Virus record (IMG/VR): IMGVR_UViG_3300046004_002881
Span: 1-32,160 of that record
DNA length: 32,160 bases
Source of the DNA: a virus
Direction: 5' to 3' (one strand)
Below the pieces are notes generated by a model that saw only the letters and a program-made list of their open reading frames with translations, ran no database searches and was not told the DNA's origin. The number at the start of each line of letters is the position of its first letter. Position 1 is the first letter of the stretch. Both the position numbers and the translations under genes were made by a program. Below are positions 2,693-19,823 of the stretch, one piece after another.

Positions 2693-3018
2693 GTGATTTT
2701 AATTATCAGCCCAGTTATAACGTCAGTATTACCAAGGCACCACGCATTAAAGCCGTGAGTTTTGGCGATGGCTACCAGCAGCGCGTTGCCGATGGCATCA
2801 ATAATACCCCGCAGCAATGGGCGCTTAATTTTCAGGCAAGCAAAGACGACATTATTGCCATTGATGCATTTTTAAGTGCGCGTAATGGCTTACTGGCTTT
2901 TACCTGGACACCGTCTGGCATGGCTGAGATTACGGTGATTTGCCGCGACTGGAGCCGCAATATTATTGCGCCCAATGCCGGCACGATTAGCGCAAAATTT
3001 GAGCAGGTTTTCGAATGA
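2689..3018 (+). CDS. Minor tail protein, lambda gpM-like
   Basis: The 109-residue product has the layout of the Phage_min_tail family: an N-terminal PSYNVSITKAPRIKAVSFGDGYQQR and a compact beta-rich rest with WTPSGMAEITVICRDWS. In lambda, gpM is part of the tail-tip complex near the distal end of the tube. The gene overlaps the tape measure by the ATGA motif, and its own stop overlaps the next ATG (3015), showing translational coupling. Size matches gpM (109 residues). Confidence 0.85.
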   Translation: MSDFNYQPSYNVSITKAPRIKAVSFGDGYQQRVADGINNTPQQWALNFQASKDDIIAIDAFLSARNGLLAFTWTPSGMAEITVICRDWSRNIIAPNAGTISAKFEQVFE

Positions 3019-3704
3019 TTACCGCTGATATTCAACTAGCCGCAGCCGGTAGTTTAGTCGAGTTTTATAAAATAGACTTGCTGCCCATTGGCGTCAATGA
3101 ACAATATTATTTTCATAATGGCGTGAATGAGCTGGGCAATGACGTTACGTGGCAAGGCCAAGCTTATATACGATTTCCAATTGAGGCCGAAGGCTTTGAA
3201 CAAAATGGCACTGGCCAGCAGGCGCGGCCATTATTACGGGTCGCTAATGTCACTGGCCTGCTTGGGGCCTTGGTTGCACAAAACGGCGACTTAGTGCGCG
3301 CAAAATTTACCCGCAAGCGTACCTTTTTAAAATACCTAGATGCTGTCAATTTTGCTGCAGGCAATGCCATGGCAGATAGCAACGTGCATTTGCCTGATGA
3401 AATATGGGTGATTGATCGTAAGGCAACGCAAACAGCCATGTTTGTTGAATGGGAACTAGCCAGTAACCTGGATTTAACCGGGGTGGTACTACCTAGACGG
3501 CAATGTATTCAAAATGTTTGCACCTGGCAGTACCGGTCTGCAGAGTGCAGTTACGCCGGCGCTGCGGTTGCTGATATTAACGATGCAGCAACCGCAGACC
3601 CATTAAAAGATGTATGCGGTAAACGCCTACAAAGCTGCCAACTACGCTTTGGCAATAACGTGCTGCCTTATGGTGGCTTCCCTGGCGTGGGGCTGACAAG
3701 ATGA
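3015..3704 (+). CDS. Minor tail protein, lambda gpL-like
   Basis: This 229-residue protein resembles phage minor tail protein L, a tail-tip component whose C-terminal domain binds an iron-sulfur cluster. The C-terminal part holds five cysteines (164, 169, 178, 201, 208) in the expected arrangement, including CIQNVCTWQYRSAEC and CGKRLQSCQLRFGN. It ends with LPYGGFPGVG, the usual end of the family. The gene overlaps both neighbours by four bases. That the cluster is [4Fe-4S], as reported for lambda gpL, is taken from the family and is not visible here. Confidence 0.88.
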   Translation: MITADIQLAAAGSLVEFYKIDLLPIGVNEQYYFHNGVNELGNDVTWQGQAYIRFPIEAEGFEQNGTGQQARPLLRVANVTGLLGALVAQNGDLVRAKFTRKRTFLKYLDAVNFAAGNAMADSNVHLPDEIWVIDRKATQTAMFVEWELASNLDLTGVVLPRRQCIQNVCTWQYRSAECSYAGAAVADINDAATADPLKDVCGKRLQSCQLRFGNNVLPYGGFPGVGLTR

Positions 3705-4411: not shown

Positions 4412-5016
4412 TGGTCACCATATTACTTTATGGGCATTTGGCCCAACAATTTGGCAAGCGTCATCAGTTTGATATTGCAACGCCTGCCGAAGCAATCAGA
4501 GCCATGAGTGCTAATTTTAAAGCGTTCAAAGCCTCAATTATGCAAGATGGGCGCGCAGCCTACAAAATTGTTGCGGGTACCGAGAATCGCTCTGATGAAC
4601 AAGCCCTGCAGCTGCCAGTTGGCCAATCAAACACCATTAAGATCATTCCTATTGTGATGGGTAGTAGCGGCTTAGGGCGGGTTATTTTAGGCGCGGCCTT
4701 GATTGCGGCCTCGTTTTATTTTCCTTATGCCTCAGCTACTTTAAAGTTTGGCTTATATTCCAGCTCGATAAGTCTGGCTGGCGTTGCATCTAGCATCGGC
4801 TTTTCACTGGTATTAGGCGGCGTTAGTCAAATGTTATTTGCTGCACCAAAATCGCAATCAACAACAACAGAGCGTCCAGACAACAAGCCCAGCTATGCTT
4901 TTAGCGGCGCAGTGAATACCGTTGGCCAAGGTAACCCGGTGCCCTATTTCTTTGGCGGGCCGCTACGCATTGGCTCACAAGTGATTAGTGCCGGATTAGT
5001 GACTGAGAATATATGA
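4411..5016 (+). CDS. Tail assembly protein, lambda gpI-like
   Basis: Translation from the ATG at 4411 gives 201 residues. The start is set by the TAATG overlap with gpK and by an upstream GGGAG at 4397-4401. A longer reading from 4363 would lie inside gpK and is rejected. The N-terminal 80 residues look ubiquitin-like. A hydrophobic glycine/alanine-rich middle (about 85-145) follows, then a C-terminus with AFSGAVNTVGQGNPVPYFFGGPLRIGSQV, all usual for gpI. It acts with K, L and J in building the tail tip. The stop overlaps the gpJ-like ATG. Confidence 0.85.
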   Translation: MVTILLYGHLAQQFGKRHQFDIATPAEAIRAMSANFKAFKASIMQDGRAAYKIVAGTENRSDEQALQLPVGQSNTIKIIPIVMGSSGLGRVILGAALIAASFYFPYASATLKFGLYSSSISLAGVASSIGFSLVLGGVSQMLFAAPKSQSTTTERPDNKPSYAFSGAVNTVGQGNPVPYFFGGPLRIGSQVISAGLVTENI

Positions 5017-8000
5017 ACAAACAACTAATACAAGGTAGCGGCGGTGGTGGCAAAGGTGGCGGTGGCGGCAGCGCTCGCGCACCAGTAGAAGCCGCAGACA
5101 GCTTACAGTCTGCGCAATACGCAAAAATTCTCGATCTAATCGCTGAGGGTGAAATCTATGGATTAGTAGATGGCCTAAAATCCATTTATCTTGATGATAC
5201 GCCATTACAAAACCCAGATGGCAGCTATAATTTTAGCGGCGTGACTTGGGATGAGCGGACCGGTACGCAAACACAACTGCCAGTCGCTGGCTTTGATTCT
5301 AGCGAGGCAGAGTCCCCAGTTGGGCTAGAAATAACAGCGGCTAACAGCGTTACAAAAACGATTGATGGCGCTAATAACACCGCCGTGCGCATTACGCTGA
5401 GCGTACCTTCCCTAACGCAGCAAAATACCAGCACCGGCGATATTAATGCGACATCTGTGGCGATTGCCATTGATATACAAAACAACGGCGGCGGCTTTAT
5501 AGCAGCAGCGCTGCGTAAAATATACACAACCAATAATTTCAACCTCACCGCTATCGGCGCTGTCACCGGCGTTGCCTCATCAGCATTTTATGTAGCAGTT
5601 TCATGGGTCGGAGAGGCCGCAAAAGCGCCACAGACATTAACAATGCAACTACAGTATCGGCAGCTAGGCAGCCCAACCTGGCTAACCTACACCAGCTTTA
5701 GTTTTAGTGGCGGTTCATATGCCTCCGTTAATGATAGCCCGGTAACTTGGTTTGGAAATACAGGATCCCCCGGGTCAATTGGCAGCGGCAGCAAGACCTT
5801 TAATTTAAACCTGCCGCATGCGCAATACGAATTTAGAGCATTAAAAATTTCAGGCAGTATCAGCTATGCGGCATCGCGTCAGATGTGGTCTTATTATAGC
5901 GGCGGCACTTATACTGGCATGCAGTATGGGGGAAGCGTATCAATCGTGAGCGGAGAAATATATCAGCCAGTCAATAGCGATATTATTTCTGGAAAAACCA
6001 GCAGCAAATATCAGCGTGCTTACCGCATAGAGTTGCCATCACCGGGGCCTTGGGATATTCGTGTACGCCGACTAACTGCAGATAGCACCTCGGTTGCACT
6101 GCAAAACAAAACCTTCTGGGATAGCTATACCGAAATTATTGATGCAAGGCTCGGTTACCCAAACAGTGCGCTGCAGGCATTGCGCATAGACTCCAAGCAG
6201 TTTACAAATATTCCGGTGCGCGGCTACGAAGCTAAAGGCATTTTAGTCAAAATACCAAGCAACTATAATCCGCTGACCAGAGCCTATAGCGGCATATGGG
6301 ACGGCACATTTAGCATTGACTGGACCGATAATCCAGCCTGGGCATTTTATGACATTATTGCCAACGCGCGTTATGGTCTGGGTGAATTTGTCAGCGAAGA
6401 TTCCATTGATAAATGGGCGCTTTATGAAATAGCGCAGTATTGCGATGAAATGGTTGATGATGGATTTGGCGGTATTGAGCCTAGATTTACTGCATCGATT
6501 TATATTCAAACGCAGGAAGAAGCTTATAAAGTCATTGGAAACATCGCCAGCATATTTCGCGGCATGGCTTACTGGGCATCTGGAAGCATTACTGCCAGCC
6601 AAGATGCGCCTAAGGATGCATCAGCACTATTTAACCAGGCGAATATTGTGGGCGGCATGTTCAGCTATTCTGGCAGTAGCGCCCGTGTGCGCCACACGGT
6701 TGCCCTAGTCGCATGGAATGACCCTGCTGATGCCTACCATCAGAAAATCGAGTATGTTGAAGACAGTGCGGGCATTGCGCGCTATGGCGTCATTAAAACA
6801 GATTTAGTTGCCATTGGCTGCACCTCGCGCGGGCAGGCTAGCCGCATGGGCCGCTGGTTAATTTATAGTGAGCAAAACGAAACCGAAACCATTACCTTTC
6901 GCGCGGCGATGGATGCGGTTTATGTTTCACCCGGCGATATTATCAAAACGCATGATACCAATCGTGCCGGCGCACGTTTTGGTGGGCGCATTATTGACGC
7001 TACATTAAGTAGCATTACGCTAGATGCGCCGGTGACATTAGATACGGGCATTAATTATGAGCTTTCATGCGTATTGACTGATGGCAGCATAGAAGTTCGC
7101 GCCATTACCAATGCGGCCGGCGTGCATAGCAACATTACATTAAGCGCAGATCTTAGTGATGTGCCGCAACAGTATGCAATTTGGCTAATCAATGGCGCAA
7201 ACCTTAATCTTGAGCAGTGGCGAGTAGTCAGCATTGCTGAAGTTGATAAAACACAGCTAGACATTACCGCCTTGGCATATCGCCCAGAGAAATACGCCGT
7301 GGTTGAAGATGGCTTAATTTTGCAGCCGCTTCCTGTTAGCTTAATTAATACCGGTCAACCGCTGGCACCTGCAGGCCTAACTATAGCCGAGTCATTGTAT
7401 ATGGCCGGTCTTGGCGTAGTTGGCGTTAAAGCATTATTTAGCTGGGAGTCTGTTGCTGGGGTTGCTAGATACACGGCCATCTACCAAAAATTAAATGAAG
7501 CACCAGTTATTATTGAAAACATACTCACTACTAGCTATGAAATAACGGCGCTGACTGAAGGCAATTATACGTTTTCTGTTTATTGCACCAATGCGCTCGG
7601 CAGACGTAGCAAAACTAGCAGCCTAGAGTTTGAAATATTGGGCAAGACTATTGCCCCTAATGATATTGCCGACTTCGTTTTGTCTTCACTGGGCTCACTA
7701 GGCTTATTTGGCTGGAGCCCGAGCACCGATTTAGATGTGATCGTTGGCGGCAAGGTGCTGTTTAGGTTTAGCCCAGATATTAATTCACAGTGGGATAGTG
7801 CCGCGGCATTAAGCACACAAACACCAGGCGCAGGCAGCACACAAACACTGCCGTTACAGTCAGGCATTTACTTTGCAAAATTTGAAGATAGCAGCGGCAA
7901 CCAGTCAACTAACGCGACTAGCATTATTACCGATGCCGCCAGCGTTCAGCAGTTAAATTTCTTGAGTTTAATCGCTAGCCAGCCGGACTGGTTAGGCGAG

Positions 8001-8702
8001 AAATTTAATACACAATATTCGCCTGATCTGCAGGCCCTGGTATTAACAAGTAGTGAGCTATGGGATAGCAGTGAGCTGATTGATGCTATTGATGACGTTG
8101 ATTTTGGCGGCGGCGTGAACTTATCTGGCAGCTATGCCGTAGGCGCACTGGATATCGGCTCGGTACAAACTAGCCGCGTATCAGGCATGGTGGAGTCCTT
8201 TGGCATTGACCTAGTGGATACCTGGGATTCTGACGAGCTAATAGATTCAATTGATGCCATAGACGGCGCCGTAGTTAGCGATGTTTCTGCAATTATGTAT
8301 GCCAGATATACCAATGACAACCCGGCAATATCGGCTATATGGACGCCATGGCAGCCGCTCGTGCTAGAAGATATTAATGCCAGAGCTTATGAGTTTGAGC
8401 TTAGATTAACTAGCGGCAATACATTCCACAATGTAGTAGTGCGCCGAGCAGAGGCGCAGGTAGATATGCCGGACCGCATAGAAACTGGCAATGATATTTC
8501 TAGCGGCATGGCTATGCATACCATTATCTACAGCAAAGCCTTTCAAGTGACGCCTGCGCTATCGATTACTGCACAAAATATGGCGACGGGTGACTACTAC
8601 GCATTAAGCAATAAAACTGCGGCAGGATTCACACTTGAATTCAAGAATGCCGCCGGTACCAACATTAACCGAACTTTTGATTACATCGCAAAAGCTTTTT
8701 AA
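5013..8702 (+). CDS. Tail tip / host specificity protein, lambda gpJ-like
   Basis: This 1229-residue protein opens with a glycine-rich segment (GGGGKGGGGGSARAPVEA) followed by LQSAQYAKILDLIAEGEIYGLVDGLKSIYLDDTP, the signature start of gpJ homologues. It forms the central tip that closes the tail tube and touches the host receptor. The middle contains the baseplate-hub-like core (about 400-700) and a fibronectin type III-like segment at about 800-880. Residues about 1027-1110 contain a repeated ELWDSSELIDAIDDVDFGG / DTWDSDELIDSIDAIDG element. The DGR-diversified fibre gene lies 12 bases downstream, suggesting two host-contact proteins on the tip. Confidence 0.9.
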   Translation: MNKQLIQGSGGGGKGGGGGSARAPVEAADSLQSAQYAKILDLIAEGEIYGLVDGLKSIYLDDTPLQNPDGSYNFSGVTWDERTGTQTQLPVAGFDSSEAESPVGLEITAANSVTKTIDGANNTAVRITLSVPSLTQQNTSTGDINATSVAIAIDIQNNGGGFIAAALRKIYTTNNFNLTAIGAVTGVASSAFYVAVSWVGEAAKAPQTLTMQLQYRQLGSPTWLTYTSFSFSGGSYASVNDSPVTWFGNTGSPGSIGSGSKTFNLNLPHAQYEFRALKISGSISYAASRQMWSYYSGGTYTGMQYGGSVSIVSGEIYQPVNSDIISGKTSSKYQRAYRIELPSPGPWDIRVRRLTADSTSVALQNKTFWDSYTEIIDARLGYPNSALQALRIDSKQFTNIPVRGYEAKGILVKIPSNYNPLTRAYSGIWDGTFSIDWTDNPAWAFYDIIANARYGLGEFVSEDSIDKWALYEIAQYCDEMVDDGFGGIEPRFTASIYIQTQEEAYKVIGNIASIFRGMAYWASGSITASQDAPKDASALFNQANIVGGMFSYSGSSARVRHTVALVAWNDPADAYHQKIEYVEDSAGIARYGVIKTDLVAIGCTSRGQASRMGRWLIYSEQNETETITFRAAMDAVYVSPGDIIKTHDTNRAGARFGGRIIDATLSSITLDAPVTLDTGINYELSCVLTDGSIEVRAITNAAGVHSNITLSADLSDVPQQYAIWLINGANLNLEQWRVVSIAEVDKTQLDITALAYRPEKYAVVEDGLILQPLPVSLINTGQPLAPAGLTIAESLYMAGLGVVGVKALFSWESVAGVARYTAIYQKLNEAPVIIENILTTSYEITALTEGNYTFSVYCTNALGRRSKTSSLEFEILGKTIAPNDIADFVLSSLGSLGLFGWSPSTDLDVIVGGKVLFRFSPDINSQWDSAAALSTQTPGAGSTQTLPLQSGIYFAKFEDSSGNQSTNATSIITDAASVQQLNFLSLIASQPDWLGEKFNTQYSPDLQALVLTSSELWDSSELIDAIDDVDFGGGVNLSGSYAVGALDIGSVQTSRVSGMVESFGIDLVDTWDSDELIDSIDAIDGAVVSDVSAIMYARYTNDNPAISAIWTPWQPLVLEDINARAYEFELRLTSGNTFHNVVVRRAEAQVDMPDRIETGNDISSGMAMHTIIYSKAFQVTPALSITAQNMATGDYYALSNKTAAGFTLEFKNAAGTNINRTFDYIAKAF

Positions 8703-8714
8703 AAAGAGAGAATT

Positions 8715-10253
8715 ATGAGCCAGTCTAGTTTAAATATAGCCAATATTACCCGCAGCCTATTTAGAGCTGCCGTTAATAACGCACTGCAGTCATCAGCGAC
8801 TGGCAATAGTGGGCCAAGCGCACCACTAGAAACTTATCCGTTTATGATCTGGAACGACACCAGCGCTAACCAGAAAAAACAGCGTAATGCAGCAGACAAT
8901 GCTTGGATTTATAAAGGCGAGCTGGGGCAAGATACCGACGGACTCCTTGCCAAATCAGGCGGTAGCATGACTGGACCAGTAAATGCCAAGCGCACTACGA
9001 TATCTACTACAGCAACAACTACGGCTATCTGGGATATTGCCAATGGCAATGTACAGGACTGGACAGGAGTAGTGACGATCACTGCATTTCCTGATGCACC
9101 GCAGCCTGGCGCTACCCGTACTTGCTACCCAGAGGCCGGGCTTATCATAACCAATAACGCCAGTATTTCTATGCAAGGCAATGCTAGCTATACGGTTTTG
9201 GCCGGTGATCAGCTAACGATTGAAGCTTTAACTACCAGCACGTTTAAAGTTTGGGTGAATAAAAAAGATGGCTCATCTATTGCCAGCTCTTTGGCCGGCC
9301 TATTTTACAAAACAAACTCTGCTGCCCCGGCGTTTATAAAAATTTCAGCAGGTGCGATATCGATTAAAGGTGGAACTAAGGTTGATGCAGCAGGGCTGCA
9401 GCTAACCTTTGCAGTCGATACCGCCATCACCATGCCCACCCTAACCGCTGGCACCGATTACGCAATCTATGCCTGCACCGATGGCACCATACGTGCCGAT
9501 GCCAGCTTCACCTTTCCTACTGGCTACACTGCACTAAACAGCCGCAAGATCGGCGGCTTTCACTACGCCCCGGGTAGTAACGCAGCAGCCCGTGCCGGCG
9601 GCGACACTACGCCAGCCATTAACGAATATTCAATTTGGGATTTGAAGTTCAAGCCAGCCAGCCCTGATCCACGCGGTCAGATGCTCGTTTCAGGTGGATT
9701 CTGGGCAGATATTTACCCACTGGGCGTGGATCACATCATCAATGGCACATCGAAGTTTAACGTCACCATTGCCGACGGTTCTAGCCCACCAAAAGTACCT
9801 ACTCAATTTGGCGGTAATGGCACAGCTACCTACACCACCCTGACTTGGTGGGAATCAGCCGAAGTGCTGGCAGCTTATGGTAAACGCCTGCCGACCTATG
9901 CTGAATTTGCAGCGCTGGCTTTCGGCACAACCGAAGCCACATCAGGCGGCACTGACCCCGTGTCAACGATTCTGCGTGCAGCCTTTACTTCAAAATGGGG
10001 CGCCATACTCGCTACCGGCAATATGTGGTTTTGGGGTGCGAATTTTGGCGGCGGCGCAGCCGGTGCTGGATGGACTGCAAACACTACCGGTCGTGGTAGT
10101 ACCTACCAAATGGAAAACGCCGCAATTTTTGGGGGCAACTGGGATGCTACGTCGAGCTCCGGTTCGCGCGCCTCGGTCTGGCTCAACTCGCCCGCGGTCT
10201 CGAACACCATCATCGGGGCTCGCGGCGTCTGTGACCACGTGGTTCTTGAGTAA
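8715..10253 (+). CDS. DGR target: tail fibre/adhesin with C-type-lectin-like variable C-terminus
   Basis: This 512-residue protein starts like a phage tail fibre. It carries a glycine/alanine-rich middle and ends in a domain resembling formylglycine-generating-enzyme/C-type-lectin folds, the usual scaffold of DGR variable proteins. Clues are GKRLPTYAEFAALAFG, GNMWFWGANF and the terminal IGARGVCDHVVLE. The last 45 residues are the variable region, encoded by 10115-10234. Residues differing from the template translation are 478, 481, 488, 490, 494, 495, 498 and 499 (here A, S, V, L, A, V, T, I). The frame between them is conserved for folding (GGNW, GSRAS, IGARGVC). It is probably displayed at the tail tip and decides receptor choice. 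A GAGAG stretch lies just before the ATG. Confidence 0.92.
   Translation: MSQSSLNIANITRSLFRAAVNNALQSSATGNSGPSAPLETYPFMIWNDTSANQKKQRNAADNAWIYKGELGQDTDGLLAKSGGSMTGPVNAKRTTISTTATTTAIWDIANGNVQDWTGVVTITAFPDAPQPGATRTCYPEAGLIITNNASISMQGNASYTVLAGDQLTIEALTTSTFKVWVNKKDGSSIASSLAGLFYKTNSAAPAFIKISAGAISIKGGTKVDAAGLQLTFAVDTAITMPTLTAGTDYAIYACTDGTIRADASFTFPTGYTALNSRKIGGFHYAPGSNAAARAGGDTTPAINEYSIWDLKFKPASPDPRGQMLVSGGFWADIYPLGVDHIINGTSKFNVTIADGSSPPKVPTQFGGNGTATYTTLTWWESAEVLAAYGKRLPTYAEFAALAFGTTEATSGGTDPVSTILRAAFTSKWGAILATGNMWFWGANFGGGAAGAGWTANTTGRGSTYQMENAAIFGGNWDATSSSGSRASVWLNSPAVSNTIIGARGVCDHVVLE
10115..10234 (+). repeat. DGR variable repeat (VR)
   Basis: This 120-bp repeat aligns without gaps to TR at a constant offset of 544 bases. 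Substitutions occur at 10147, 10148, 10156, 10176, 10177, 10182, 10183, 10194, 10197, 10198, 10207 and 10210. Each is an adenine in TR (3 to C, 5 to T, 4 to G). The 24 bases at its 3' end (10211-10234, GC-rich) are identical to TR. They are the expected initiation-of-mutagenic-homing region where cDNA synthesis starts. Confidence 0.97.
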
Positions 10254-10268
10254 GCAGCGGCAGCTGCT
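10253..10268 (+). promoter_or_regulatory. Post-VR hairpin/cruciform with GGCA tetraloop
   Basis: AGCAGC (10253-10258), GGCA (10259-10262) and GCTGCT (10263-10268) form a 6-bp perfect stem with a four-base loop, 18 bases past the VR end and at the target stop codon. Phage DGRs of the Bordetella BPP-1 type need a short hairpin or cruciform with a GRNA tetraloop downstream of VR for efficient target recognition, and GGCA fits GRNA. A second palindrome, ACCACGTGGT (10234-10243), lies between VR and this hairpin. Confidence 0.7.
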
Positions 10269-10277
10269 GGAATCATT

Positions 10278-10649
10278 ATGACACCTGAACTAGACACTAA
10301 TCAAAACTACGAGCCGATGGCCGTCGTCGAGAAATATGAAACCGTGATCAAGTATCTATACCCGATTGCGGAGAATTTACCGCGTAAGCACGGGGTAGCA
10401 CGCGATATGTTTTTGACGTGCTTGCTAGGGCAGGTGCAACTTTTTGTAGAGGCGGGTAAATCCAATCAGGTTTCGCGCCTTTACATCGCAGATGCTGGGT
10501 TATCACATCTGCGGTTTTGGCTACGGTTTTTGTGCGGCGACCAAGTCCGCGGCATTACGCCCCATCAGGTGCAAACAGCGCAAGTGCTGATTGCTGAGGT
10601 TGGGAAAATGCTCGGTGCTTGGATCATCAAGCAAAAGCGTAGGGGGTAG
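10278..10649 (+). CDS. avd: DGR accessory variability determinant Avd
   Basis: This 123-residue, mainly alpha-helical and basic protein has the size of Bordetella phage bAvd. It sits exactly between the target gene and TR. Known Avd proteins form a barrel-like pentamer that binds the RT and the template RNA and is required for retrohoming. Sequence cues are VVEKYETVIKYLYPIAENLPRKHGVA, a four-helix pattern and a lysine/arginine-rich end (IIKQKRRG). It starts 24 bases after the target stop, with the post-VR hairpin in the gap. Its stop lies 9 bases before TR. Confidence 0.9.
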   Translation: MTPELDTNQNYEPMAVVEKYETVIKYLYPIAENLPRKHGVARDMFLTCLLGQVQLFVEAGKSNQVSRLYIADAGLSHLRFWLRFLCGDQVRGITPHQVQTAQVLIAEVGKMLGAWIIKQKRRG

Positions 10650-10658
10650 CATGGGTAT

Positions 10659-10778
10659 AAACGCCGCAATTTTTGGGGGCAACTGGGATGAAACGTCGAA
10701 CTCCGGTTCGCGCGCCTCGAACTGGAACAACTCGCCCACGAACTCGAACAACAACATCGGGGCTCGCGGCGTCTGTGA
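10659..10778 (+). repeat. DGR template repeat (TR)
   Basis: This is the 120-bp invariant donor copy of VR. It contains 30 adenines, mostly in AAC codons placed where the target protein is variable. The 90 non-adenine positions are all identical in VR. AAC codons mutated at the first two bases can give many amino acids but no stop, the known logic of DGR templates. The translated TR reads N at the variable sites (for example SPTNSNNNIGARGVC). TR is much richer in G+C than the prophage around it. Confidence 0.97.
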
Positions 10779-10956
10779 GGACATAAGCAATACTTTATCG
10801 CTCTGCTGCGGTTACGGCACAGCAGGCCGACCTTATCTTGTGTGGTCAGCCATTCTATCCTGCTTCGGCAAATACCTTTGGGGGTTCAGAAAAACGGCGA
10901 GTAGCCAGCTTAAAACCTGCGTGAAAGTCGTGTCTGGCTTATTAATTGGAGCCTTA
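10659..10956 (+). ncRNA. DGR template RNA region (TR plus 3' spacer)
   Basis: In characterised DGRs the functional RNA covers TR and the spacer running into the RT gene, which folds and recruits RT and Avd. Here the spacer is 10779-10956 (178 bases). It contains a possible stem, CTGCTG (10803-10808) with CAGCAG (10820-10825), loop 11. The true RNA ends cannot be read from sequence. Confidence 0.55.
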
Positions 10957-11943
10957 ATGGGTAAAAAGTACAAACATTTAATTGAACAAATCGCAGATAT
11001 AGACAATCTGCGCTCAGCCTTTGCTAAAACGTCATCCGGCAAACGCATGACTTGGGGCTACCTAGAATTTAAAGAATATGCAGAGCTAAATTTATTAAAC
11101 CTGCGCGCCGATATTTTAAGCGGTAGCTGGGTGCAAGGGGCGTTTAGAGAGTTTATTGTCTACGAGCCTAAGCAACGCACGATCAGCGCCTTGCAGTTTA
11201 AAGACCGCGTGGCACAGCATGCCCTGGTGAATATCATCGGACCTATATTTGATAGAACATTATTGCCAGGCACGCATGCATGCCGCTTGGGCATGGGCAC
11301 ACATACCGGCGTAAAGCATGTGCAGTCTGCACTGCGGCGCACCGGCCACACCCACTTTTTAAAGACTGACTATAGCAAGTTCTTCTATAGCGTTGATCGG
11401 CGCGTACTCCACGGCCTGATCCGAAAGAAGATTAGCTGCCAGCGCACGCTGAGATTGATCGAGGCCATGCTGCCGGCCACCGGCGTTGGCATCCCCATCG
11501 GCAGTTTAAGCAGTCAGCTTTTCGCCAATGTTTACGGCGGCGTGATTGATCGGTTTATTCACTTTGAACTAGGCGCACGCGAGTGGACCCGCTACATGGA
11601 TGACATCGTCATTCTATCGAGCAATCCCTATGAACTGCGTCAATGGTTTGAAGAGATCAAAGCCGTCAGCAAAAAAGAGCTTGGCCTCGGCATCAGTCAC
11701 TGGCAAGTATCACCGGTGACACACGGCATCAACTTCTTAGGCTACCGCATCTGGCCGCGGCATAAGTTGCTGCGCAAAGCTTCAGTCACCAGCGCTAAAC
11801 GAAAAATAGCGCGTTACACCAAATACAAAGAAACCGACGCACTCAAAAAATTTATCGCCTCATGGCGTGGGCATGCCGCCCATGCTGACACCTGCAATCT
11901 ATTTAACCACCTGAAAGAAACCTATGACATTAACCTCCATTAA
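10957..11943 (+). CDS. DGR reverse transcriptase
   Basis: From the ATG at 10957, which has GGAG at 10948-10951 five bases before it, the protein is 328 residues. This is the usual size of DGR RTs. Motifs are KTDYSKFF with catalytic Asp138, the DGR-specific IPIGSLSSQ (179-187) where group II intron RTs have QGxxxSP, YMDD (213-216, Asp215/Asp216) and NFLGYRI (259-265). It has no maturase or endonuclease domain. The enzyme copies TR RNA into cDNA with adenine-specific errors. The frame is open further upstream, through TR to 10591, but the longer readings have no domain support. The last 20 bases overlap the next gene. Confidence 0.95.
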   Translation: MGKKYKHLIEQIADIDNLRSAFAKTSSGKRMTWGYLEFKEYAELNLLNLRADILSGSWVQGAFREFIVYEPKQRTISALQFKDRVAQHALVNIIGPIFDRTLLPGTHACRLGMGTHTGVKHVQSALRRTGHTHFLKTDYSKFFYSVDRRVLHGLIRKKISCQRTLRLIEAMLPATGVGIPIGSLSSQLFANVYGGVIDRFIHFELGAREWTRYMDDIVILSSNPYELRQWFEEIKAVSKKELGLGISHWQVSPVTHGINFLGYRIWPRHKLLRKASVTSAKRKIARYTKYKETDALKKFIASWRGHAAHADTCNLFNHLKETYDINLH

Positions 11944-12391
11944 TACCCGCGCAGACCTTGATGCTTTACTAGGTACACCCCAGCATGCCGTCGCTATGAC
12001 GATGTTAGGCGGCACCTTATGGCGACTTGAAAAAGATGATGCTGCAAAATCATGGACTGCGGTTTTAGACGAAACAACTATCGAACGCTTTGGCTTAACT
12101 ATTGCCGACTTTACCGACGTGCAATCACCGGAGCTGCCGGAGTACGTGGCACCGGAGCTGCCCCCGATGAAGTCATTATCAGCCTGGCAAGTACGAAAAG
12201 TGCTCACCGACGCTGGCCTGCGTGATGAAATTGAAGCTGCAGTTGCGCTAGCTGACCAAAACACGCGCGATGCCTGGGCTTATGCCGGTGAGTTTAGACG
12301 CGATAGCCGGGTACTTAATGCCATGGCAGCATCGCTTGGCATGACTGATGCGCAGCTTGACGAGCTTTTTGAACTGGGGGTAACGCTGTGA
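11924..12391 (+). CDS. Phage protein of unknown function after the DGR
   Basis: I do not recognise this 155-residue protein. The N-terminal half is mixed (GGTLWRLEKDDAAKSW). A proline-rich linker (SPELPEYVAPELPPMKSL) follows, then a helical C-terminus (LSAWQVRKVLTDAGLRDEIEAAVALADQNTRDAWAYAGEF). Similar C-termini occur in small proteins encoded after phage fibre genes. The gene starts inside the RT gene (20-base overlap) and ends in GTGA, overlapping the next start. Its position suggests a structural or fibre-assembly role, which is inference. Confidence 0.75.
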   Translation: MTLTSINTRADLDALLGTPQHAVAMTMLGGTLWRLEKDDAAKSWTAVLDETTIERFGLTIADFTDVQSPELPEYVAPELPPMKSLSAWQVRKVLTDAGLRDEIEAAVALADQNTRDAWAYAGEFRRDSRVLNAMAASLGMTDAQLDELFELGVTL

Positions 12392-14464: not shown

Positions 14465-14535
14465 TACCCCAATTAACTGGGGTAACTTAGTGGGGTAAGT
14501 TTAATTTAACGACATTTTGATGTTGGAGTTACCCC
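14465..14535. repeat. GGGGTAACTT-type repeats beside the left att (candidate integrase arm sites)
   Basis: Direct copies lie at 14479-14488 (GGGGTAACTT) and 14492-14501 (GGGGTAAGTT). Inverted copies lie at 14465-14471 (TACCCCA) and 14527-14535 (AGTTACCCC). A further exact inverted copy, AAGTTACCCC, is at 14644-14653 in the integrase gene, followed by GGGGTAAGT at 14659-14667. Matching direct repeats occur near the right att. A TTGACA at 14459-14464 could be the -35 of the integrase promoter, which the repeats would overlap. Confidence 0.6.
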
Positions 14536-14537
14536 AA

Positions 14538-15812
14538 ATGGCACTAACCGACACACTCATTAAAGCCAACAATCACAAGGACGCAGACGGCAAAGTAAAA
14601 GTCGCTCCTTACAAGCTGTATGACGAGAAAGGTTTGTTTTTACAAGTTACCCCAAATGGGGGTAAGTGGTGGCGTCTAAAATATCAATTTGACGGTAAAG
14701 AAAAATTACTCTCATTAGGCACTTATCCTGAAGTGCCATTGGCTGGCAAGTGGCAAGACCCCAAAACTAAAAAAATTTGGCTTGATGGTGCAAGGGATAA
14801 GCGCGATAAAGCAAGGGAGCTAATAGCCAGTGAAGTTGACCCTAGCGAAAACCGCAAGAATATAAAAGCGACTGATAAGCTAAACACAGCCAATAGTTTT
14901 GAAGCCTTGGCGCGTGAGTGGGCGAAAAGTTACTTCACCAACAAAACAGAGTCACACCAAGAACGCACCATGAGGCGTTTAGAACTTTATGTTTTCCCAT
15001 GGTTAGGCAGTAAGGCGATATCTGAAATAACCGCGCCACAGATACTAGAAACCGTTAAGCGTATTGAAAACTTGAACAAACTTGAAACAGCACACAGAAC
15101 ATTGCAAGCCACTAGCCAAGTGTTTCGCCATGCGGTACAGACTGGCAGAGCATTACGCGACCCATGTGTGGATTTAAGGGGCGCGTTACCTGCTACAGTT
15201 GTTAAGCACATGGCATCATTCACAGAGCCTAAAGAAATTGCCGAACTGTTACGTGCAATAGACGGCTTCACAGGTTCGTTTACCGTTCAAACAGCACTTA
15301 GGTTATCGCCATTAGTATTTACGCGCCCTAGCGAGTTACGCACAGCTAAATGGGCAGATATTGATTTAGAGGCAAACGAATGGCGTTATCGTGTAAGCAA
15401 AACTCAGATAGATCACCTAGTACCATTGTCAACACAGGCGGCTAAATTGTTTGCTGAAATGAAAGCATTATCAGGTCATGGCGAATTTGTTTTTCAAGGT
15501 GGACACGACCCTAAAAAACCTATGAGTGCGGCGGCTATCAATGCAGCATTAAAACGCATGGGTTACGACACCCAAAAAGATATAACCGCTCATGGTTTCA
15601 GGGCAATGGCACGCACCATATTGCATGAGAGATTAAACATTGACCCCCATGTGATTGAACATCAACTAGCGCACAAAGTGCCTGATGCATTAGGCGCGGC
15701 ATATAACCGCACCAAGTTTATTGAACAACGCACAACGATGATGCAAGTATGGGCTGATTACTTAGACGAACTAAAAGCTGGTGCGAAGGTATTGCCATTT
15801 AAGCAAGCCTAA
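14538..15812 (+). CDS. P4-type tyrosine recombinase (integrase)
   Basis: This site-specific recombinase, probably integrating at the ssrA 3' end, has 424 residues from the ATG at 14538. This start gives MALTDT, the typical family N-terminus, with GGAG nine bases upstream. Earlier TTG/ATG codons at 14517 and 14520 add only a few atypical residues. The N-terminal DUF4102-like arm-binding domain (about 1-105) is followed by a SAM-like core-binding domain (about 120-215) and the catalytic domain. Catalytic residues are Arg263 (TRPSELRTAKW), His352 and Arg355 (HGFRAMAR), His379 and Tyr389. A short insert (about 70-84, GKWQDPKTKKIWLDG) interrupts the usual LGxYPEVxLAxAR region. All key residues are intact. 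Confidence 0.95.
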   Translation: MALTDTLIKANNHKDADGKVKVAPYKLYDEKGLFLQVTPNGGKWWRLKYQFDGKEKLLSLGTYPEVPLAGKWQDPKTKKIWLDGARDKRDKARELIASEVDPSENRKNIKATDKLNTANSFEALAREWAKSYFTNKTESHQERTMRRLELYVFPWLGSKAISEITAPQILETVKRIENLNKLETAHRTLQATSQVFRHAVQTGRALRDPCVDLRGALPATVVKHMASFTEPKEIAELLRAIDGFTGSFTVQTALRLSPLVFTRPSELRTAKWADIDLEANEWRYRVSKTQIDHLVPLSTQAAKLFAEMKALSGHGEFVFQGGHDPKKPMSAAAINAALKRMGYDTQKDITAHGFRAMARTILHERLNIDPHVIEHQLAHKVPDALGAAYNRTKFIEQRTTMMQVWADYLDELKAGAKVLPFKQA

Positions 15813-17262: not shown

Positions 17263-17997
17263 GTGGCATCAAATCACATTATTAGGCTAGGTAAGATTAA
17301 GGGCGACTTAGGTGTTTCAAGTGCATTGAAGCATAACAAACGTACATTGCAAATTAAGCACGGTGTTAGTTCACACATAGACGCGACTAGAACATCATTG
17401 AACTATTCGCTAGTGAATAAAGACAGCTCCGAAGCAATAACGATGCACGCAAAAGTGCAAATGGTTAAAGCGGGCATTAACAAGCCCCGTAAAAACGGTG
17501 TGATGGCGGTCGAGATTATCTTTAGTTTGCCGACTGACAGACACGCCCAAAATACGAGGCCGTTCTTTATTGATTGTTTTGAGTGGGTGAAGCTAAACTT
17601 TGCAGGTGAATTGCTATCTTTTGATGTACACCTAGACGAAAGCGCACCACATGCTCACGCGCTTATATTGCCCTTGATTGATGGCAAGATGCAAGGGAAT
17701 CGCATGGTGGGCAGTACAGGCAACCTGATGCGCTTAATCAATAAGTTTCATTTAGACGTAGCAAGGCATTACCGATTAAGTAAGAACGACAAGACACGTT
17801 TATCAGCTATGGATAAGCAAACCCTTGCAAAGCTTGTATTAACGCATCTAAAGCATGACCCCGTGATGAAGTCGTGCGTTTGGTCTTGTATTCGAGATTT
17901 AATCGGTAAAGACCCATTGCCGTTTGCTCAAATGCTATCCATTCCATTGACGTTTGCCACGCCTCCAATAAGCAAAATAAGCGCCTCAATAAGTTAA
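17263..17997 (+). CDS. Pre/Mob-type relaxase (plasmid recombination enzyme)
   Basis: The 244-residue protein starts at GTG two bases after the previous stop. Its core motif HLDESAPHAHALILPL (123-138) is the HxDExxPHxH metal-binding motif of the MobV/Pre family, which nicks oriT in mobilizable plasmids and elements. Upstream SHIDATRTSLNYSLV corresponds to motif I, with the Asn/Tyr region. Family members are often 300-500 residues with a coiled-coil tail. This one ends soon after the nuclease domain (KDPLPFAQMLSIPL...), so it may be a short form or truncated at the 3' end. It gives the element a route to mobilization by a helper conjugative system. Confidence 0.85.
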   Translation: MASNHIIRLGKIKGDLGVSSALKHNKRTLQIKHGVSSHIDATRTSLNYSLVNKDSSEAITMHAKVQMVKAGINKPRKNGVMAVEIIFSLPTDRHAQNTRPFFIDCFEWVKLNFAGELLSFDVHLDESAPHAHALILPLIDGKMQGNRMVGSTGNLMRLINKFHLDVARHYRLSKNDKTRLSAMDKQTLAKLVLTHLKHDPVMKSCVWSCIRDLIGKDPLPFAQMLSIPLTFATPPISKISASIS

Positions 17998-18757: not shown

Positions 18758-18837
18758 GGATTAATAGCGAGAAACTTTAATCCCTAAACACGGCGTGGGA
18801 TTGTTTGCCGTGTAAATAAAAAGAAATATTTATGCAA
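18758..18837 (+). promoter_or_regulatory. Structured leader repeat, copy 1
   Basis: This sequence is about 89% identical to 19745-19823 and ends at the start codon. Hairpin 1 pairs GGATTAA (18758-18764) with TTAATCC (18777-18783). Hairpin 2 pairs ACACGGC (18788-18794) with GCCGTGT (18807-18813) around a 12-base loop. An AAGAAAT ribosome-binding area and the ATG follow. It is probably transcribed as a 5' untranslated leader of the exported protein gene. Confidence 0.6.
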
Positions 18838-19744: not shown

Positions 19745-19823
19745 GGATTAATAGCGAGAGCCTTTAAGCCCTAAGCATGGCGGGGATTGTTTGCTGTGTA
19801 AATAACAAGGAATATTTATGCAA
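19745..19823 (+). promoter_or_regulatory. Structured leader repeat, copy 2
   Basis: This is the second copy of the approximately 80-bp leader, with 8 substitutions and one 1-base gap. Hairpin 2 is kept: GCATGGC (19775-19781) still pairs with GCTGTGT (19793-19799). Two C-to-T changes give G-U pairs, which suggests selection on RNA pairing. Hairpin 1 has one mismatch (GGATTAA with TTAAGCC). AAGGAAT and the ATG at 19818 follow. Confidence 0.6.

Follow-up and report, generated by a model that had tools for sequence, protein, structure and literature searches.

The window analysed here spans the 32,160 bases of an IMG/VR virus record, in which lambda-like tail genes (tape measure, 464–2692; tail L, 3015–3704; host-specificity J, 5013–8702) are followed by a diversity-generating retroelement (DGR), an amidase and a tyrosine integrase (14517–15812). 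From about 18.8 kb onward the genes look bacterial: a reading of the translations suggests PAS/GGDEF-EAL regulators and a chemotaxis receptor, and Pfam recognises a sulfotransferase and a mechanosensitive channel. Thus, the window is probably a prophage with a bacterial flank. No tRNA was found anywhere in the window. Two direct repeats of ~80 bases (18758–18837 and 19745–19823; 987 apart, 85–93% identical) flank a gene of 286 aa of no recognised family and are perhaps a duplicated promoter region. Adjoining the integrase, at 17263–17997, there is a MobV/Mob_Pre relaxase that scores 83.4 bits, below the cut-off of 100, and may be what is left of a mobilisable element next to the prophage.

Target gene, repeats and cassette

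All the features of the element, as well as the gene behind it, lie on the + strand. The target gene (8715–10253) encodes 512 residues, of which residues 196–512 match the solved Mtd chains 1yu0–1yu4 of the PDB (E about 1e-116), and the gene is also matched by Pfam mtd_2nd (E 4.4e-27) and by the tail protein family phrog_11262 (E 1.6e-120). For residues 1–195, the comparison with solved chains gave no match to Mtd. Judging from the match to these chains, the C-terminal 317 residues are Mtd, a receptor-binding lectin of the C-type, and the variable repeat lies within its coding sequence, in keeping with the lectin-like fibre target of the original prediction. An Mtd-like C-terminus was also seen on the gene 17 tail fibre of LR745707–LR745709, records named Escherichia phage T7 that are perhaps laboratory constructs.

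The variable repeat (VR, 10115–10234) occupies the 3′ end of the target gene. It aligns without a gap with the template repeat (TR, 10659–10778) over 120 bp, with 90% identity. All 12 mismatches fall on the 30 adenines of the TR (four A-to-G, five A-to-T and three A-to-C), and the 90 non-adenine positions are identical, just as had been claimed; if the mismatches were placed at random on the 120 positions, the probability of finding all of them on adenines would be 8.2e-9. The identity of the 90 other positions implies that little time, measured against ordinary mutation and drift, has passed since the last homing. The first 32 bases of the VR are the same as in the TR, adenines included, and the target codons that differ are the eight foreseen (478, 481, 488, 490, 494, 495, 498 and 499). 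In the target frame, ten codons of the TR are AAC, no adenine codon of the TR can give rise to a stop codon, and ~3e15 protein variants are possible. The 12 diversified codons of BPP-1 Mtd (344–369) all have adenine codons at the matching sites here (475–500), with a constant offset of 131. Two more codons, 494 and 498, are diversifiable beyond those 12, and both are changed in the VR.

A side-by-side comparison with the VR and TR of BPP-1 points to an IMH-like, G/C-rich 3′ terminus of the VR (CGGGGCTCGCGGCGTCTGTGACCACG, 10214–10240, limits approximate), which is nearly the same as that of BPP-1 and from which the TR diverges past 10778. A DNA hairpin with a 6-bp stem and a GRNA loop (AGCAGC-GGCA-GCTGCT, 10253–10268) begins 18 nt after the VR, and a hairpin like this was found in 0.2% of shuffled-sequence trials. 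In BPP-1, efficient homing needs a GRNA-loop hairpin behind the VR, and the rule published for phage DGRs is a 4-nt GRNA loop located 4–34 bp after the VR, with a GC-rich stem of 7–10 bp (PMC3240598). The GGCA loop and the distance found here fit this rule, whereas the perfect stem has 6 bp instead of 7–10 bp. When a strict definition was applied to 50 distinct DGR loci, 34 carried a GRNA hairpin.

The accessory protein of BPP-1-like DGRs is encoded by avd (accessory variability determinant; 10278–10649, 123 aa), which had also been proposed and is recognised by Pfam bAvd (E 3.3e-30), NCBIfam NF033474 (DivGenRetAVD; 108.6 bits, cut-off of 80) and PDB 4dwl (E 8.6e-51). Between the TR and the reverse transcriptase gene lies the structured RNA typical of these elements (10800–10938), a part missing from the original prediction, which matches Rfam RF03022 (Phage_DGR) at full length (model 1–127 of 127) with 99.4 bits against a gathering threshold of 50. 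Within this spacer RNA, A10848 aligns with adenine 56 of the BPP-1 spacer in an identical ten-base context (GTGGTCAGCC), and we take that adenine to be the primer of cDNA synthesis in BPP-1. Priming of the cDNA by an internal spacer adenine has been described (PMC12875486).

The reverse transcriptase (RT; 10957–11943, 328 aa, with a YMDD motif) is 60% identical over its full length to the bRT of BPP-1, which also has 328 residues. Its best solved match is the bRT of 8ub7 (E 3.5e-131, 328 of 328 residues), and a group II intron RT comes second (E 7.8e-12). In a maximum likelihood tree of 35 RTs, which included three group II intron RTs and left out those of retrons, the window RT clusters with the RTs of L004 and L006 (100/99), and this cluster falls within the BPP-1 group (100/100); the three group II intron RTs are found beyond a branch with 99/98 support. 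By this match and this tree, the RT belongs to the DGR clade, in line with what had been predicted.

The start of the RT is most likely the ATG at 10957, since in the alignment of 328 residues the bRT of BPP-1 begins exactly there. In the ORF list, the RT frame is open upstream through the TR to 10591. We rejected the translation of the TR as part of the RT, given that the nearest relatives measured (L006–L018) lack an open frame across the TR, that the score against phrog_1423 rises only from 368.6 to 378.4 bits when the TR is added, and that bRT has the start just mentioned; an open frame across the TR is present in L019 and several more distant loci. As for the extent of the element, the span originally proposed (10115–11943) is too short; the element also comprises the target gene in full, the hairpin, the spacer RNA and possibly the companion gene (11924–12391, 155 aa) behind the RT.

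Likeness to BPP-1 and activity among relatives

The element is ordinary in kind, being a close relative of the well-studied DGR of Bordetella phage BPP-1 (mtd-avd-TR-brt), whose gene order is the same. With the RT, avd, TR/VR pair and Mtd target all recognised, the prediction of a complete DGR is borne out. Apart from the identity of the RTs, avd is 65% and the C-terminal part of Mtd 58–59% identical to their BPP-1 counterparts, and both elements have the spacer RNA, the IMH-like end, the GRNA-loop hairpin, the 12 diversified codons and the companion gene behind the RT. The target is larger here than BPP-1 Mtd (512 against 381 aa), residues 1–195 not being Mtd, and the companion gene carries an additional C-terminal half. 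The tail genes differ as well, the window phage having lambda-like ones, unlike BPP-1, which is a podovirus.

In the IMG/VR relatives L004–L018 (RT 68–82% identical), the cassette and the behaviour of the TR and VR are the same as in the window, but most of the flanking phage genes are not shared. When the window proteins were compared with all relatives, the shared stretch ran from the C-terminal part of Mtd to the gene behind the RT, with J, the amidase and the integrase nearly unshared. Given these unshared flanks and the lack of an Mtd match for the first 195 residues of the target, the cassette and the lectin part are carried by different phage backbones, which is what one would expect of tail fibres that are modular. 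The viral DGRs surveyed worldwide by Roux et al. (2021), who judged 50–75% of DGRs to be recently active, are also phage-borne, target a tail protein and show adenine bias, and we saw no difference in kind between them and the DGR in the window (PMC8144416).

In an adenine-blind survey of TR/VR pairs at 68 loci, which include the window and some near-duplicates, the rate of difference from TR to VR was 0.51 for A, 0.005 for C, 0.011 for G and 0.032 for T. Thus, the pattern in the window follows a rule of the family and is not due to chance. In pairs of loci with identical TRs, the VRs differ at 17 of 24 adenines and 0 of 83 other positions in L009/L078, at 16 of 26 and 0 of 93 in L015/L016, and at 11 of 15 and 0 of 43 in L062/L063. 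Since near-identical relatives with a constant TR vary in the VR almost solely at template adenines, these sequences indicate that the BPP-1-like DGR family is active. Adenine-matched variation of the VR over a constant TR was the check suggested together with the original prediction, and equal rates of change at non-adenine positions would have counted against it; in the relatives, we observed the former and the contrary of the latter. The nearest of the relatives found has an RT just 82% identical to that of the window.

Proposed mechanism and alternatives

We are nearly certain that the element is a BPP-1-type DGR, in which the RT and Avd copy the TR, with mutagenesis at adenines, into the VR of the Mtd-type receptor-binding gene. 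By analogy with BPP-1, from which the biochemical steps are drawn, a transcript through avd, the TR and the spacer RNA would be bound by the RT and Avd, and the RT would copy the TR to cDNA from a point close to the 3′ end of the TR, with random bases incorporated wherever the template has an adenine. This cDNA would then replace the VR of the Mtd-type gene, guided by the common G/C-rich 3′ end and by the hairpin behind the VR. The outcome would be receptor-binding variants spread over about 16 codons, none of which could become a stop.

A rival reading is that a once-working DGR was silenced lately in the prophage, for instance through being unexpressed in the lysogen or through a lesion outside the core, leaving the TR/VR pattern as a relic. 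Apparently silenced relatives do exist. For example, the L087 contig (G012:C1:33545–34528) carries a DGR RT with one in-frame TAA and its element is probably broken, and the TR of L012 (L012:4700–4824) has 8 adenines, fewer than its own VR; either a mutated copy has overwritten this template or the metagenome is misassembled there. Furthermore, exact DNA pattern matching in IMG/VR found no same-population relative of the window, and the activity of this copy is inferred from BPP-1. Nevertheless, the YMDD motif is present and all reading frames are intact, and the absence of differences at the 90 non-adenine sites places homing recently compared with ordinary drift. We consider silencing improbable, and this copy is likely still active. 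That a plain gene duplication lies beside an RT from an unrelated retroelement, such as a group II intron or a retron, is scarcely credible. The window RT does score on group II intron and retron models, as is usual for related RTs, but these scores are far under the curated cut-offs (92 against 300 and 43 against 235, respectively), the RT falls inside the BPP-1 group in the tree, and 12 of 12 changes on adenines would not be expected from random duplication. These observations refute the reading of a duplication next to an unrelated retroelement, and they are the contrary of the grouping with group II introns or retrons that had been named as an argument against a DGR.

Companion gene and possible gain or loss of the module

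The companion gene starts before the end of the RT gene, which it overlaps. Its first half (the N-terminal ~75 residues) is of the Bbp4 kind (HMM E 1.7e-10), and its C-terminal half is phrog_6034-like. An ORF of ~80 aa, which is Bbp4 in BPP-1, is found behind the RT in 69 of the 77 loci with enough sequence, and the eight loci without it are seven distant DGRs and L067. Profile searches with the Bbp4 family matched neither a Pfam family nor, with confidence, any PHROGs family, its structure model is moderate (pLDDT 83, pTM 0.54) and has no fold match in the PDB (best E 4.3), and a literature search found no paper on bbp4 by name.

A wider search found Bbp4-like genes at 80 loci, with an RT upstream in 59 and an Mtd gene directly upstream, without an RT, in about 20, among which L166 is oddly cut and carries avd. 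In 11 of these mtd-companion contigs, which are up to 55 kb long and maybe fragments, there is no RT anywhere. As the companion adjoins mtd in RT-less contigs, it would seem to go with mtd, the DGR being the inserted part, and it is likely to be the partner of the target gene and to lie outside the DGR core. We can only guess at a role in the assembly or display of Mtd. To regard the companion as a DGR component is less simple, as it follows mtd without any RT too and the published four-part DGR works in E. coli without a bbp4-like gene (PMC12875486).

The GRNA hairpin was found at 0 of 14 RT-less loci, which differs from the DGR loci with a Fisher p of 3e-6 when relatedness among loci is ignored. 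L114 has a companion with 92% identity to that of BPP-1. Here, the mtd of a BPP-1 relative is followed (L114:2950–3001) by TAGCGGGGCCGA, a match to the left half of the BPP-1 hairpin, after which come unrelated sequence and the bbp4-like gene, and no RT is present in the 36-kb contig. The half hairpin suggests that the module was lost by deletion, and the simplest reading of L114 is that it is a probable case of natural DGR loss. Whether mtd and the bbp4-like companion are an older receptor-binding pair, with avd-TR-RT as a detachable module gained or lost at their junction on repeated occasions, is in our judgement an evenly balanced question.

The 3′ ends of the related mtd genes of L180, L182 and L183, all in RT-less contigs, differ at 19–22 of 122 bases in a VR-like stretch, and around this stretch L180/L183 show 5/207 and 2/308 differences. 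Such hypervariability of the Mtd tip without an RT in the contig would mean either that the DGR was lost recently or that a DGR acts from elsewhere.

The element in the window is thus a well-marked example of the BPP-1 system, has every known part and occurs in a phage of another tail type. The relatives of this element set the parts of the DGR (hairpin, avd, TR, RNA and RT) apart from the receptor part (the bbp4-like gene), and they provide natural before-and-after pairs in which the same receptor gene occurs with and without a DGR. Such pairs could reveal how targeted hypermutation comes and goes in phages.
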